In this document: positions 53,054-59,352 of the stretch, piece after piece
Position numbering within the stretch: position 1 is the first letter of the stretch
Layout of the letters: each line of letters opens with the position of its first letter
Assembly (NCBI RefSeq): GCF_002954405.1
Contig: NZ_MQWC01000004.1
Location: 3,412,668 to 3,476,667, forward strand
From: Salinibacter sp. 10B
GTDB lineage: Bacteria > Bacteroidota > Rhodothermia > Rhodothermales > Salinibacteraceae
Reading direction: 5' to 3'
Length of the DNA: 64,000 bases
Made by a program: the position numbers and the translations under genes
Notes under the pieces: generated by a model
What the model was told of the DNA's origin: nothing
Databases searched by the model: none
Seen by the model: only the letters and a program-made list of their open reading frames with translations

Positions 53054-54799
53054 CTACACCGCCTCCCCCGTTTCCACCTCTTCGAGTTGGACGCCCTTCA
53101 GTCCCATCGCGTCGTACGTCGCACCCTCAAAGGCATCGATCTCCGACTGCACTTCATCCATGATCTCCTTCGGCCCCTTCGTGTAGTTCATCTCCACCCC
53201 GAGCTTTTGGGCGATCTCCGGAAGGAGTTCCCAACTGGGCTTGCAGTTGATCTTGTTCTCATCGTTGTGCCAGCGGTCGAATGGCGTGCCGTGCTCGTCC
53301 TCCCGATTGGTGCCCATCTCCATCATGAGGGTGCGGTTCACGCCCTGGATCTCCTTTGCGGGACGCACGCGCTGAGCCCGGCCGTCCTGGTTGACGTAGG
53401 TGCCCACCGTCTCCACCACCATGGCGGCAGGGAGGGCCGCCGTGGCATGGGGCAGGGTCTCGTTCGTCGTATTGTAGTAGTGCAGAACCACGTCTACGTC
53501 CTGGGTCTTCAGGGCCTCGGCGGTGCAGAGACCGGAGCCGACCGGGTCGTCTTCCAGTACGTAGACGAGGTCGTACTTCCCCTTCTCGATGCGCGAGCCC
53601 ACTAGCTCCTCATCGATCGGCTGAATGCCGAGGCGCTCACAGCCCTGAGCGTTGGGCGTCTTGTCGTCCGTGATGAGCCAGTCGTCGCCCGCCCCTGGTT
53701 CAAGGTGGGGGATGTAGCGCGGGGGCTCAGCACCCACCGCCTCCGCGAGCTGCTTGAGCAGGTAGTTGTCCTCAACAGTCGCGTGAGCGGAGCCGAGGAA
53801 GAGGGTGCGCTCCGGGTCAGCGCTGCCAAGAAGGGAGGCGACCTTAGCGAAGGCCTGGTCCCATTGGGCGCCCTTCAGCGTGTCGCTGGTACGGATGTGG
53901 GGGCCATCCGGACGGTTGTCGTTGAACTTGTTATAGACGAGCCGGTCCTCGTCCGGCAGCCAGTGCTCGTTCACCGCCATGTTCTGCCGCGGCGTGATGC
54001 GGAGCACCTGATTGTCGCGCACCCAGTAGTGGCAGTTGGCGCCCGTCGCGTTGGTCGTCGTGATCGACGGGGTGGAGCTCATCTCCCAGATTCGCGCCTT
54101 GAAGCGGAAGTCCGTGGCCGTGAGTGCGCCGACCGGGCAGATGTCGATCGTGTTCATCGAGTACGGGTCGTCGAACGTCTCGCCCGGCGCCGTCATCGGA
54201 TAGTTCTTAACGCCCCGGTTCGTGATCGTGAGCTGACCACTCTCCGACACTTCATCGGTAAAGCGCGTGCAGCGTGTGCAGTTGATGCAGCGCTCGGCGT
54301 CGAGCGTCACGCGCGGCCCCAGCTTTACGCGCTTGGGCTTGTGCACCTTCCGAAACTCAAAGCGCGAGCCCTCCGGCCCGTACTTGTAGGCCTGGATCTG
54401 GAGCGGGCAGTGCCCGGCCTGATCGCAGATGGGGCAGTCGAGCGGGTGGTTGGCTAGGAGGAACTCCAGATTGTCCGTCTGCGCATCGCGCACCTCCTCG
54501 CTGGAGCGGTGGGTTTGGACGACCATGCCGTCGGCCAGGTCGATTGTGCAGCTGGCCTGCAATCCCGGCATGTACTGGATTTCCGGCTCGCCGTCCTCGT
54601 TGAGCTCCACCTCCCCGGTTTCGCGGTCCTTCTTCGGCATGCCTACCTTCACGAGGCATTGCCGGCAGTTGGCCGGGATGGACATGGCGGGGTGGTAGCA
54701 GAAGTGCGGCAGTTCAATGCCCTGGTTCAGGCAGAACTGCAAGAGCTTCTGCTCGCCCTCATATTCGTACGTCGTTCCGTCGATGGTGACGATTGGCAT
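53054..54799 (-). CDS. nuoG: NADH-quinone oxidoreductase subunit G (iron-sulfur)
   Basis: 581 aa peripheral-arm subunit of respiratory complex I. The N-terminal 2Fe-2S ligands are HFCYHPAMSIPANCRQC plus a later ASC. The 4Fe-4S site is HPLDCPICDQAGHCPLQ, followed by a second 4Fe-4S site CINCTRCTRF...ICPVGAL. The molybdopterin-oxidoreductase-like domain (about 220-560) begins GANCHYWVRDNQVLRITPRQ but is short. Electrons pass through it from NuoE/F to NuoB/I. It is separated from nuoF by about 1.9 kb of non-nuo genes. A terminator follows it, and nuoH-N are not downstream. Confidence 0.95.
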   Translation of the reverse strand: MPIVTIDGTTYEYEGEQKLLQFCLNQGIELPHFCYHPAMSIPANCRQCLVKVGMPKKDRETGEVELNEDGEPEIQYMPGLQASCTIDLADGMVVQTHRSSEEVRDAQTDNLEFLLANHPLDCPICDQAGHCPLQIQAYKYGPEGSRFEFRKVHKPKRVKLGPRVTLDAERCINCTRCTRFTDEVSESGQLTITNRGVKNYPMTAPGETFDDPYSMNTIDICPVGALTATDFRFKARIWEMSSTPSITTTNATGANCHYWVRDNQVLRITPRQNMAVNEHWLPDEDRLVYNKFNDNRPDGPHIRTSDTLKGAQWDQAFAKVASLLGSADPERTLFLGSAHATVEDNYLLKQLAEAVGAEPPRYIPHLEPGAGDDWLITDDKTPNAQGCERLGIQPIDEELVGSRIEKGKYDLVYVLEDDPVGSGLCTAEALKTQDVDVVLHYYNTTNETLPHATAALPAAMVVETVGTYVNQDGRAQRVRPAKEIQGVNRTLMMEMGTNREDEHGTPFDRWHNDENKINCKPSWELLPEIAQKLGVEMNYTKGPKEIMDEVQSEIDAFEGATYDAMGLKGVQLEEVETGEAV

Positions 54800-54903: not shown

Positions 54904-55533
54904 TCACTCGTGTTCGTCGTCGAAGGAGACATCTAAATAAATCTCGGAGATGGGGAGCGCCGCGTCAAGGGAGGGCAGATCAATTTCTGCGTCAAGTCCG
55001 TCGGTTTCGGTAAAGCGCCAGCTCCCGTCGTCCTGCCGCACGTAGTGCTCGACGTGGGGACGATCCTGGGCCACGAGGAGGTATTCCTGGAGGGAGTCGA
55101 GCTGTCGGTAGCGGGCAAATTTTTCGCCGCGGTCGTAGTCCATCGTCGAGGGGGAGAGCACCTCAAAGACTACGGCTGGGTTGTATAGAAGGTCGCACCG
55201 ATTAGGATCGAGGGCAGGTTCTCCGCAGACGACTACGAGATCGGGGTACGCGTATCGATCCGTCTCGGGAAAGGGAACGAGGATGTCTCGGGAGGCAGTG
55301 CGACATTCCGTCTCCTTGAGTAGAAGCCCGAGTTCACGATCGAGGTTGGACGTAATTGCGCTGTGAGACCAAGTTGCGGCAGCAGCCATGCTAATGAGCC
55401 ATCCATTGACGTATTCGTGCCGTTCCTCGCTTTTTCGCTCGCGTTCAAGGTACTCGGTCGTTGACACCGGTTCGTCGTTGACGACGCGATGGGAAAGGGA
55501 CGGAGGCGGAGCTGGACGAGTTGCAGTAGCCAT
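54904..55533 (-). CDS. Uma2-family (DUF820) restriction-endonuclease-fold protein
   Basis: 209 aa. VSTTEYLERERKSEERHEYV and NGWLISMAAAATWSHSAITS make the N-terminal helices. The PD-(D/E)xK core is DRYAYPDLVVVCGEP followed by NPAVVFEVLSPSTMDYDRGE and KFARYRQLDSLQEYLLVAQD. These proteins are widespread in cyanobacteria and some Bacteroidota and are often mobile; activity is largely untested. Here it is embedded in the complex I gene cluster between nuoF and nuoG, on the same strand, 104 bp before nuoG, which is unexpected. Confidence 0.9.
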   Translation of the reverse strand: MATATRPAPPPSLSHRVVNDEPVSTTEYLERERKSEERHEYVNGWLISMAAAATWSHSAITSNLDRELGLLLKETECRTASRDILVPFPETDRYAYPDLVVVCGEPALDPNRCDLLYNPAVVFEVLSPSTMDYDRGEKFARYRQLDSLQEYLLVAQDRPHVEHYVRQDDGSWRFTETDGLDAEIDLPSLDAALPISEIYLDVSFDDEHE

Positions 55534-55559
55534 ACCCCGATCTTATTGGTCGAGAGTCC

Positions 55560-55770
55560 GGTTCTACAACCTGTACGGGCGTCACCTGCACACCGTTCGC
55601 CGTGAGGCGGAGCGTGTCGTTCTCAGCGCGCAGCGTGCCGGTGGGCGACGGCGGGGGGCGGAATGACGTCGACAGCGTCCATGCGTGTCTCGTAGGTCCG
55701 TTATGCTTCCGGGAGGATCTCGATAGAATTGCTGCAGCCGCCAAGGAGAGGAGGGAGGACTGTCAGAAGC
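55560..55770 (-). pseudogene. Possible lipoprotein remnant
   Basis: One minus-strand frame reads VLLTVLPPLLGGCSNSIEIL, a plausible lipoprotein signal with lipobox, but stops after EA. In the neighbouring frame the sequence goes on as NGPTRHAWTLSTSFRPPPSP and TLRLTANGVQVTPVQVVEPD. A frameshifted small lipoprotein is the simplest reading. The start is unclear and the call is weak. Confidence 0.35.
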
Positions 55771-55797
55771 ACAGGAGGGTCCCCATTTGAAGACGGA

Positions 55798-56187
55798 TCA
55801 TGCTATTTCTGCGGTTGGTGCGTCGGGGGATTCGGGCGCGTCGTCAAACTGGTGCAATAGGGCGTAGAGTTGTTCGAGCTTGGCATTGTGGACGAGCCGA
55901 CGGATGCCGATTCCGGCCCCAGGGAGCACCATGAACATGAACCCGGATGCGAAGTCCAGCCCGGCCCATCCGAGTTGCACGCTGGCAATCAAAAGTGCGA
56001 CAGCGGCAATCATCACGGTGAGGAGGGCCCACAGCCACCACTGGTCTCGACGGAGGATTTCCAGGCGATCGGTGACGAACGAGGAGGGATAGGGCTCGTC
56101 CCAGGAGGTGCGCTGCTCGTAGGTCAGGCGGTCGTACTCGCCGAGGTCGTTGAGGGCCTCCACGATGGAGTCACGAGCGTCACGCAT
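55798..56187 (-). CDS. Two-helix membrane protein, copy 1 of a nuo-embedded family
   Basis: 129 aa. The soluble N-terminus is MRDARDSIVEALNDLGEYDR with a following Tyr/Trp/Pro segment. Two membrane helices lie at about 50-70 (WLWALLTVMIAAVALLIASV) and 74-94. The C-terminal amphipathic helix is NAKLEQLYALLHQFDD, and the tail is acidic. It matches the broken gene at 56254 in the N-terminal (RDxIVxAL..LGE) and C-terminal (QLYxLLxQxD) motifs, and more distantly the gene at 58104. I know no family name. It is in line with the nuo genes and probably on their transcript. Confidence 0.7.
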   Translation of the reverse strand: MRDARDSIVEALNDLGEYDRLTYEQRTSWDEPYPSSFVTDRLEILRRDQWWLWALLTVMIAAVALLIASVQLGWAGLDFASGFMFMVLPGAGIGIRRLVHNAKLEQLYALLHQFDDAPESPDAPTAEIA

Positions 56188-56253
56188 CGGGCCAAGGGGC
56201 GGTTTTACGCTGAGCGGAGATCACGATAGGAAGACCTTGCCAGGAAGGCAACG

Positions 56254-56640
56254 TCAGTGTGTCGAGGTCTCGGCTCCTTCCGAATGGAGGTCGACCTGCT
56301 TCAGAAGGTCGTAGAGCTGCAGTGCCCGTATCTGATCTTCGGCCCACGGGTCGGTGAAGAGCGAGGTGACTGCGAACATACACCCGAATCCAAACAAAAT
56401 CCAGACAAGACATTCGGAATGGGCCAGCCTGCGATTCCTAGGCCGCCGGTAACCCCGACCAGAAGCATGAGGACGAGGAGGGGGGGCAATCGCAGTCGCC
56501 ACCGTAGACGCTTGGATCGGTTCCCGATGGCCTCAGGGGGATAGGATTCGTCGGCTCCCCAGACATCCGCCATTTTTGCGCGCTCGCCCAGGGCATCGAG
56601 CGCCTGCACGATGTCGTCGCGCGTCAGGGCGTCGGAATGG
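56254..56640 (-). pseudogene. Two-helix membrane protein, copy 2, frameshifted
   Basis: The first part reads TRDDIVQALDALGERAKMAD and ADESYPPEAIGNRSKRLRWR, then a hydrophobic helix PPLLVLMLLVGVTGGLGIAG. Near 56395 the frame must change to continue with FGFGCMFAVTSLFTDPWAED and QIRALQLYDLLKQVDLHSEG. No ATG precedes the first part (only a GTG at 56609), so the start also seems lost. It begins within about 40 bp of the nuoF stop. A paralogue of the gene at 55798, apparently inactivated, unless the frameshift is a sequencing error. Confidence 0.65.
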
Positions 56641-56678
56641 CGTAGAAAGTCGGTTTTGCTTCTCGTGTGGTGCGGGTG

Positions 56679-58040
56679 CTACTCCGTCGCCGCCACCGCC
56701 GACTGCGCCCCGCCTGACACCTCGGCACTCACGGGGTGGACCGACGGCTTGCACTTCGCTTCGAAGTCCTCGCGGAAGCGCTGCACGGTGTAGCGAACGG
56801 GCCAGGAGGCTGCGTCGGCAAACGCACAGATCGTGCGGCCCTCCATCTGGTCGCAGAGGTCGAGCAGGAGGTCGAGGTCGCGCATGTTGCCCTCGCCCTG
56901 ATCGATGCGGGTGACGAGGTTTTCGAGCCAGCCGGTGCCCTCGCGACACGGCGTGCACTGGCCGCAGCTTTCGTCCTGGAAGAAGTGCGTCACGCGCCGG
57001 AGCCAGGACACCATGTCGGTGTCCTCGTCGAGGATCAGCATGCCGCCGGTGCCAAACATCGTCCCGGCCTCGTTCAGGCTGTTGGAGTTCATGGTGACGC
57101 CCTCGGCCCAGTCGCCCGGAATCGGTGCGGTAGAGGCCCCGCCCGGAATGATGGCCTTGATGTCTTTTCCGCCGCGCACACCGCCGGCCACCTCGTGGAT
57201 AAGGTCGGACATGAGCATCCCAGTGGGGTACTCGTAGACGCCGGGGCGATTGACGTGGCCCGAAATGCCATAGAGGACGGGACCCGGGTGGTCCTCAGCG
57301 CCCGTGTTGGCGAACCAGTCCGGGCCCTTGTCCATGATGAGCGGGACGTTGGCCAGCGTCTCCACGTTGTTGATGGTCGTAGGGCAGCCGAAGATTCCCT
57401 TTTGGGCGGGAAACGGCGGCTTGTAGCGCGGATAGCCCCGCTTGCCTTCGACGCTCTCCATGAGGCTGGTTTCCTCCCCGCAGATGTAGGCACCGGCGCC
57501 CTTGTGAAGCACAATCTCCATCGAGAAGTCCGAGCCCATGATGTTTTCGCCGACGTAGCCCTTCTCGTAGGCTTGCTCGAGCTGGGTGGCCATGTGTGTG
57601 ATCCAGTCGGCGTACTCGCCCCGCACGTAGACGTAGCAGGTATCAATCTGGAGGGCATAGCCCGCGATCAGAATGCCCTCAAACATGAGGTGCGGGTTGT
57701 ACTCCAGAATCTGCCGGTCCTTGAACGTTCCGGGCTCGCTCTCGTCGGCGTTGCAGGCAAGGTAGCGTGGACGCTCGTCCGGCTCCGGCATGAAACTCCA
57801 CTTCATTCCTGTGGAGAAGGCCGCGCCGCCCCGTCCGCGCAGGCCCGACTGCTTCACCGCATCGGTCACGTCGCCGGGCTCCATGTCGCTATCGTCGAGC
57901 ACGCGGCGGAGTTGGTCGTACCCACCGTTCTCCTCGTAGACCTCCAGTTTGTGGAGATCCTGAATGGGGGGGAGGAGCACCCGGTCGTACGAGCGCCAGT
58001 CACCGGCCTTGGACGTGGGGGCACCGTCGGTCGCTTCCAT
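56679..58040 (-). CDS. nuoF: NADH-quinone oxidoreductase subunit F (FMN, NADH-binding)
   Basis: 453 aa. The NADH/FMN site is SGLRGRGGAAFSTGMKWSFM, then NADESEPGTFKDR, then the glycine-rich GAGAYICGEETSLMESVEGK. PFPAQKGIFGCPTTINNVET is the usual loop. The 4Fe-4S (N3) ligands are ESCGQCTPCREGTGW with TICAFADA. It oxidises NADH and passes electrons to NuoG. The C-terminal tail ends in a Glu/Ala/Ser-rich stretch. It is preceded 64 bp upstream by a small membrane-protein gene rather than directly by nuoE. Confidence 0.96.
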   Translation of the reverse strand: MEATDGAPTSKAGDWRSYDRVLLPPIQDLHKLEVYEENGGYDQLRRVLDDSDMEPGDVTDAVKQSGLRGRGGAAFSTGMKWSFMPEPDERPRYLACNADESEPGTFKDRQILEYNPHLMFEGILIAGYALQIDTCYVYVRGEYADWITHMATQLEQAYEKGYVGENIMGSDFSMEIVLHKGAGAYICGEETSLMESVEGKRGYPRYKPPFPAQKGIFGCPTTINNVETLANVPLIMDKGPDWFANTGAEDHPGPVLYGISGHVNRPGVYEYPTGMLMSDLIHEVAGGVRGGKDIKAIIPGGASTAPIPGDWAEGVTMNSNSLNEAGTMFGTGGMLILDEDTDMVSWLRRVTHFFQDESCGQCTPCREGTGWLENLVTRIDQGEGNMRDLDLLLDLCDQMEGRTICAFADAASWPVRYTVQRFREDFEAKCKPSVHPVSAEVSGGAQSAVAATE

Positions 58041-58103
58041 GATTACGTAGGGTTATGAAGCAATGCAGGGGAGATCGTCGAGGCTCCAGTAGAGCCGAAA
58101 ATG

Positions 58104-58529
58104 TTAGGCAGAATCCTGAGTCGCGGTCGCCGCCTCCGTAGCAGTCTCCGCTTCGTGGCCCAGGGCACGGAGGGCCTTATAGGTCTGGAGCTGGTGATGC
58201 CATCGAAGGTACATGTGCACGGCCCAGCCCATCTGGGCGGCAGCAAAGAGGCAGGCCAGGGCCACCGGACTGAGAAACTCAAGAACCGTAAAGCGTTCCG
58301 TTGCCTGGTAGTAGTGGTAGAATGCCGTCGTCGGGAGGGCCACCGAGAGAAGACCCATCGTGATGCCGAGGGCCCAGACCCACTTTCGGGCCTCGCGGAG
58401 CGAGCGCACCTTGCGAGTCGCGAACGTTGCCCAGTCCGGCCCATGCAACTGAGCCTTCTCGTCCTCCGAGAGTCCCCCCAAGCTGTCAATCAGCACCTCA
58501 CGGGCCGACGGCGTTTGTGGAGAAGGCAT
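58104..58529 (-). CDS. Two-helix membrane protein, copy 3, between nuoE and nuoF
   Basis: 141 aa from the ATG at 58529 (MPSPQTPSAREVLIDSLGGL). The N-terminal helix AREVLIDSLGGLSEDEKAQL is followed by a charged stretch (RKVRSLREARKWVW). Two membrane helices are WALGITMGLLSVALPTTAFY and LSPVALACLFAAAQMGWAVH, and the C-terminal helix is WHHQLQTYKALRALGHEAET. It has the same plan as the genes at 55798 and 56254, though it is more diverged. Spacing of 68 bp to nuoE and 64 bp to nuoF places it inside the operon. Not a known complex I subunit as far as I can tell. Confidence 0.75.
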   Translation of the reverse strand: MPSPQTPSAREVLIDSLGGLSEDEKAQLHGPDWATFATRKVRSLREARKWVWALGITMGLLSVALPTTAFYHYYQATERFTVLEFLSPVALACLFAAAQMGWAVHMYLRWHHQLQTYKALRALGHEAETATEAATATQDSA

Positions 58530-58596: not shown

Positions 58597-59274
58597 CTAT
58601 TCCATATGCTCCGCGCGTGGCTGCGTCTCGTAGGTGGTCGTCTTCTCCACGTCGGTGCGCCGGTTGCCGTCCATCTCGTCCTCATCCTGCGGGAGCGTGA
58701 CGGACGTGAATTCCGGGACTTCGCCCGCCCGCAAGCTCTCAATCAGGTCGTCAATCTTCTCAGGCGTAAGCTGGTGCACGTAGACCCCATTCGAGACCTC
58801 CAGCATGGGGGCCGAGCCGCAAGCGCCAAGACACTCTGCCGCCTGCACGGTGAACATGCCGTCGTCGGTCGTCTCGCCGGCGTGCACGTCCAGCTTCTCT
58901 TCCAGGTAGTGCAGAATGTCGTAGCCACCGCACACCTGGCACGTGAAGCAGGTGCAGACGTCGAGCACGTAGTTCCCCTTCTCCTCCTTGTAGTACTGGT
59001 GGTAGAAGGTGGCCACGCCGTAGGCCTGCGAGAACGTCATGTCCAGCGTCTCCCCGCAGAACTTGATGACCTCCGGCGGCAGGTAGCCGTACTTTTCCTG
59101 GGCCAACCAGAGGACCTTCATGATTGCACCCTGGTCCTCCGGATACTGGTCCTTCCAGGCCTCGATCTGTTCCTGTTCCTCCTCGGTCCACACGAGCTCA
59201 TCATCGGAAAACTCCGGCTCCGGGTCCTGGTCCGGGAGTTCGACGATGGGCTTCTGAATATCAAACTTGGACAT
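58597..59274 (-). CDS. nuoE: NADH-quinone oxidoreductase subunit E (2Fe-2S)
   Basis: 225 aa from the ATG at 59274 (MSKFDIQKPIVELPDQDPEP). The acidic N-terminal 40 residues are extra. The thioredoxin-like 2Fe-2S domain has LWLAQEKYGYLPPEVIKFCG, then VCTCFTCQVCGGYDILHYLE and AAECLGACGSAPMLEV, giving the Cx4C...Cx3C cluster ligands. The C-terminus is also long and charged. With NuoF and NuoG it forms the NADH-input module of complex I. The start codon touches one arm of a stem-loop at 59274-59352. Confidence 0.95.
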   Translation of the reverse strand: MSKFDIQKPIVELPDQDPEPEFSDDELVWTEEEQEQIEAWKDQYPEDQGAIMKVLWLAQEKYGYLPPEVIKFCGETLDMTFSQAYGVATFYHQYYKEEKGNYVLDVCTCFTCQVCGGYDILHYLEEKLDVHAGETTDDGMFTVQAAECLGACGSAPMLEVSNGVYVHQLTPEKIDDLIESLRAGEVPEFTSVTLPQDEDEMDGNRRTDVEKTTTYETQPRAEHME

Positions 59275-59352
59275 TTGCGAATGTCGAGTTTCGAATGTCG
59301 AATTTGGTGCGGTGTCGATGGACGAGCACATTCGCCATTCGACACTCGCAAA
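59274..59352 (-). repeat. Stem-loop in the nuoD-nuoE spacer
   Basis: Arms 59274-59297 and 59329-59352 pair at about 19 of 24 positions (TTTGCGA.TGTCGA....CGAATG in the left arm). The nuoE ATG sits at the edge of one arm. In the mRNA this would fold just before nuoE and could affect its translation or mRNA processing (inference). Confidence 0.55.

Follow-up and report, generated by a model that had tools for sequence, protein, structure and literature searches.

The genes nuoE, nuoF and nuoG specify the NADH-oxidising module of respiratory complex I. In Salinibacter sp. 10B the stretch that they span also contains small genes for proteins with two predicted membrane helices, which raises the question of whether these proteins serve complex I or are passengers among its genes. 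We analysed them in a 64,000-nt stretch of contig NZ_MQWC01000004.1 (positions 3,412,668 to 3,476,667), called the window here, and in genomes of the same class.

The locus and its gene calls

On the minus strand, the genes run in the order nuoB, nuoC, nuoD, nuoE, A, nuoF, C, B, a lipoprotein remnant, a Uma2 gene and nuoG (Table 1). Gene A is separated by 67 bp from nuoE and by 63 bp from nuoF, and A, B and C all fall within 2.3 kb. These positions, the order and the close spacing of A agree with the original prediction, as does the count of two intact copies and one frameshifted copy: A and B are intact, and the two halves of C lie in different frames. The prediction also correctly placed three small genes at the two junctions, but it omitted the intact Uma2 gene and the decayed DUF4920-type gene. 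We infer, again as predicted, that A is likely to be co-transcribed with its nuo neighbours; neither a sigma-70-like promoter nor an above-chance terminator was found in the stretch, and the sigma-70 consensus is poorly suited to this phylum.

Table 1. Features of the nuoE–nuoG region, with positions in the window
Feature	Positions	Strand	Support
nuoE, 24 kDa-type [2Fe-2S] subunit, 5′ neighbour of A	58597-59331	-	PF01257, 158 bits
Protein A, 141 aa, intact, two predicted membrane helices, nuoE/nuoF junction	58104-58529	-	
nuoF, FMN/NADH-binding subunit	56679-58040	-	PF01512, PF10589
Pseudogene C, broken B-type copy, frameshifted, without usual start codon	56254-56627	-	
Protein B, 129 aa, intact, two predicted membrane helices, nuoF/nuoG junction	55798-56187	-	
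Decayed DUF4920-type lipoprotein gene	55553-55742	-	tblastn E 2e-12 to 5e-11, two frames, stop present
Uma2 family putative endonuclease gene, intact, outside the two-helix family	54904-55533	-	PF05685, 110.5 bits
nuoG, 3′ neighbour	53054-54799	-	PF22117, PF10588, PF00384

We did not adopt a longer, 212-residue version of A with its start at the TTG at 58742, since it would overlap nuoE and the G020 orthologue begins MPSPQ. The C-terminal tail of NuoE (NRRxD...TYxTPP-like) is conserved in several families of the order, with or without a gene at the junction. In C, no ATG, GTG or TTG occurs upstream of the conserved N-terminal helix, and its frameshift may stem from an assembly error.

A family of two-helix membrane proteins

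The three genes had been predicted to share a common plan and to be paralogues, and both claims hold. Family proteins, of about 120–280 residues, start with a short amphipathic helix and a charged, presumably cytoplasmic segment; two membrane helices follow, and a basic helix forms the C terminus. Conserved motifs mark the N-terminal and C-terminal helices of B (RDSIVEALNDLGE and EQLYALLHQFDD, respectively) and of C (RDDIVQALDALGE and LQLYDLLKQVD); A is a divergent copy, with AREVLIDSLGG and LQTYKALRAL at these places. When a profile of nine A-type proteins was compared with one of five B-type proteins, they aligned over 117 columns with a score of 66 and a probability of 96.9, against scores of 23–24 when either profile was reversed; none of 60 local shuffles exceeded 34. 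Additionally, a profile made solely of B-type proteins retrieves A as a further match from the whole genome, searched in six frames, at E 0.004. The score above both sets of controls and this retrieval indicate that the paralogy is real. The first half of C shares 38–42% of its residues with B-type proteins (E 1e-7 to 4e-5), and the second half continues in another frame. By these sequence comparisons, A, B and C are one homologous family, rather than three unrelated ones.

The original prediction had also held that none of these proteins looks like a known NDH-1 subunit. Accordingly, neither A nor B nor any of 17 relatives scored above the curated cut-off of a NuoA–N family model. Pfam and NCBIfam gave only weak, scattered, sub-threshold matches of the kind that membrane helices commonly give, and PADLOC models gave no family match, with one weak hit (E 0.009) to one member of 12. 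A 12-member profile found nothing below E 0.27 among PDB sequences, solved complex I chains included; NuoK chains appeared at E 2.6 and 5.7 only, as chance matches. Weak matches in reading frames of 800–900 residues were likewise set aside as chance membrane-helix similarity. A literature search that covered few of the subscription papers dealing with the nuo clusters of Rhodothermus and Paracoccus turned up none that describes these reading frames. The family thus matches no Pfam, NCBIfam, PADLOC or PDB family and appears to be undescribed, although an earlier mention is possible.

A model of A made with AF2 from the single sequence, without an alignment (pLDDT 85.8, pTM 0.70), has two short N-terminal helices followed by long helices at residues 33–76 and 82–140, arranged as a hairpin. 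B, modelled by itself, gave a poor result (pLDDT 64). In fold comparisons, the A model had no clearly specific match, its matches being generic helical hairpins, with a best Foldseek E of 0.64 and a best VIA Z of 8.9 among many unrelated hairpins. A is therefore predicted, with fair confidence, to form a long helical hairpin, and because basic residues flank the helices, both termini would lie in the cytoplasm.

Distribution and inheritance at the two junctions

Within the window's own taxonomic family, sampled by 27 genomes from nine genera, A-type genes occur in 9 genomes and 5 genera, always as a single copy and always at nuoE/nuoF. B-type genes occur in five genomes from three genera, all directly 3′ of nuoF, and sit at nuoF/nuoG in all three genomes whose contig extends to nuoG. 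Retention at two separate junctions, as originally proposed, is thus borne out, with presence that is patchy even inside a single genus. Elsewhere in the window's genus, nuoE and nuoF are 83–129 bp apart in the resolved members; compared with contigs of named genomes, A has a single match, in a Salinivenus MAG (L089). In the window's own genome (4.75 Mb), nothing other than A and B scores E 0.001 or better with a 19-row profile.

Across 245 genomes of the class, we ran a 12-row profile built nearly entirely from A- and B-type proteins, with two sequences from outside nuo. Outside the window's family it gave eight matches that were not part of its training (E 1.6e-9 to 3.1e-5), seven at nuoE/nuoF, in the taxonomic families numbered f5, f10, f12 and f13, and one elsewhere (G187). 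The relatives in these four families are longer, at about 220–280 aa, with added N- and C-terminal parts; one genome (G208) has two family members in tandem at nuoE/nuoF. In another family, f11, candidates at nuoF/nuoG are weak profile matches (E 0.002–0.007), and compared with the A- and B-type profiles, the f11 gene at this junction gives probabilities of 14–69 and scores of 25–34 versus 12–22 reversed. Outside nuo, the broader 19-row profile picks up a dozen or so members, without a common neighbour. Some of these lie in neighbouring pairs (L137, 4621-5559; L124, 2046-2510 and 4163-4462), and the L124 pair flanks a transposase-like frame that is TnpB-like by eye only.

A census of 72 loci, enriched in carriers since some were fetched as hits, shows that carriers are a minority. 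At nuoE/nuoF, two-helix genes occupy 17 loci (two together with Uma2), Uma2 alone occupies 7, 46 are empty or hold another gene and 2 are unresolved, so that 46 of the 70 resolved loci carry neither gene despite the enrichment. At nuoF/nuoG, where the classes overlap, a DUF4920 gene is present at 45 loci (the window's remnant included) and a two-helix gene at 9, with 18 empty or otherwise occupied and 2 unresolved. Contiguous nuo genes in related genomes, with the small genes lying elsewhere, had been named as grounds for rejecting the original prediction. This pattern is found in part: nuoE and nuoF are adjacent without a two-helix gene in most relatives, but there the small genes are mostly missing rather than placed elsewhere.

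Several lines of evidence bear on how these genes evolved. First, in a tree of the family, the A-type sequences form a clade (support 94/93), as do those of the other taxonomic families (100/98), and a single clade for all nuoE/nuoF copies was neither rejected (p 0.23) nor recovered with support, leaving one origin of all these copies possible. That each group is a single clade suggests that the genes have long been passed on vertically at their present sites. Second, A-type pairs have dN/dS of 0.05–0.22, and A is under purifying selection; B-type pairs have dN/dS of about 0.4, with saturated dS. Third, A changes much faster than nuoD and nuoE.

The junctions have other occupants. Uma2 genes stand at nuoE/nuoF in six taxonomic families (f1, f4, f5, f9, f10 and f11; loci L053, L119, L123, L129, L147, L148, L156, L157 and L158); in the window's genus Uma2 occurs at nuoF/nuoG, and a single gap can hold as many as two full-length copies. 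At nuoF/nuoG the usual occupant in the order is a DUF4920 lipoprotein (for example, L119, L120 and L139), which frequently carries a VCQxxGCW motif; the window's copy is decayed. Uma2 (a putative endonuclease) and DUF4920 (here a lipoprotein) share both junctions with the two-helix family in this order, with unrelated sequences, and we know of no tie between either and complex I. Because these genes use the same junctions, junction position is by itself weak evidence of function.

The nuoF gene between the junctions also comes in two types in the window's genus (the window and loci L057–L067). That of the window is 88–96% identical within its type and 77–81% identical to most other genera of the family; the second type is 81–99% identical within itself and 67–72% identical to those genera. 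The nuoD, nuoE and nuoG flanks are about 77–97% identical across nuoF types, and a partial nuoF in G020 is intermediate between them. This pattern suggests that nuoF alone may have been exchanged or accelerated, with boundaries near both junctions. We also considered, and dropped, a past duplication of an A–nuoF unit, which would have left homologues on either side of nuoF and accounted for both nuoF types. The second type occurs only in the window's genus, and the sequences closest to it, apart from its own members, are of the first type in that genus.

A possible role in complex I

The explanation that we tentatively favour is that the two-helix proteins are dispensable, fast-evolving, membrane-anchored accessory or assembly factors of the NADH module. 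Long inheritance within the stretch encoding this module, at two separate junctions that both adjoin nuoF, together with purifying selection, makes an accessory role the best explanation. In such a role, the small protein would be produced together with NuoE and NuoF and inserted in the membrane so that its two termini face the cytoplasm. Its cytoplasmic helices would keep NuoE, NuoF, NuoG or an intermediate in their assembly close to the membrane, and this tethering would raise the yield or stability of the NADH module as it joins the rest of complex I. A helper that is optional and fast-evolving could be freely lost by lineages. The finished module stands far from the membrane, and an assembly or recruitment role therefore fits better than that of a structural subunit of the module. 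It is unlikely, although conceivable, that the proteins make up an order-specific class of assembly factors dedicated to the NADH module and encoded right at the junctions of the genes that they serve, with the copies on either side of nuoF acting at different steps.

Against a helper role, most relatives whose nuo operon is intact lack the genes, B is fast-evolving and C is dead. A quite possible alternative, nearly as likely, is a vertically inherited passenger in a permissive slot, with an unrelated membrane job, expressed through the operon and with the copies flanking nuoF arising by local duplication. The Uma2 and DUF4920 genes at the same junctions (the latter at 45 of 70 resolved nuoF/nuoG loci), the dozen or so members elsewhere, the patchy presence within one genus and the two decayed genes in the window's nuoF/nuoG gap would all be expected of such a passenger. 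By contrast, the detectable members in this genome all lie within nuo, and the strongest profile matches in other taxonomic families occupy the same junction. Moreover, inheritance of each group as a clade and purifying selection on A mean that these genes are more than transient clutter. We rate the accessory role only slightly above the passenger because unrelated genes share the junctions, carriers are a minority and members occur elsewhere.

A third explanation is improbable: that the proteins are structural, supernumerary subunits of the finished complex, bound within the membrane arm or where the two arms meet. Two membrane helices and the position in the operon would suit such a subunit, and there are precedents. 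Thermus complex I has the supernumerary subunits Nqo15 and Nqo16. Paracoccus complex I contains NDUFS4, NDUFS6, NDUFA12 and PIMT, so that bacteria can recruit extra subunits (PMC11522691). The likeness lies in extra, lineage-specific proteins beyond the 14-subunit core; however, the Paracoccus and Thermus subunits are peripheral and have solved structures, whereas the two-helix proteins have two predicted membrane helices and no PDB relative. An integral subunit would not usually be so patchily present or change so fast, and no relative was found among solved complex I chains, the NuoK matches (E 2.6 and above) being chance ones.

Finally, a mobile selfish element that spread by transposition or homing and landed in nuo by chance is highly improbable: three copies within 2.3 kb and a transposase-like frame near some members outside nuo (L124) recall such an element, but the nuo gaps contain no mobility gene, this genome has no near-identical copies elsewhere, its detectable copies all being in nuo, and the nuo copies of each group form clades. 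Of the two roles originally offered, accessory or assembly factor and selfish passenger, the first is thus plausible, given retention at the junctions, and the second, in its mobile sense, finds no support.

Other nuo or nqo operons with extra genes include those of Rhodothermus marinus (nhaD and pcd) and Paracoccus (unidentified reading frames). These genes are likewise non-core and embedded among complex I genes, and we take them to be different gene families. The closest functional analogue of the favoured assembly role, if it is right, would be RavA–ViaA of Escherichia coli, a helper that lies outside the core, binds Nuo subunits and has been proposed to aid maturation of the complex (PMC3893208). 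RavA is a MoxR ATPase acting with a cofactor and encoded outside nuo, and we claim no sequence likeness to the two-helix family.

Because relatives recur at the same two junctions across the order, the family looks like an optional, lineage-specific addition to complex I; because unrelated genes share these junctions and the family has members outside nuo, a role in complex I is no more than plausible. To our knowledge, little is understood of how bacteria put together the NADH-oxidising arm of complex I, and descriptions of dedicated factors are few. A membrane-anchored family beside nuoE, nuoF and nuoG in several taxonomic families would be a direct candidate for an assembly factor. If the proteins are instead passengers, the locus would offer a well-resolved case of a highly conserved operon gaining, keeping and losing small genes at fixed slots.
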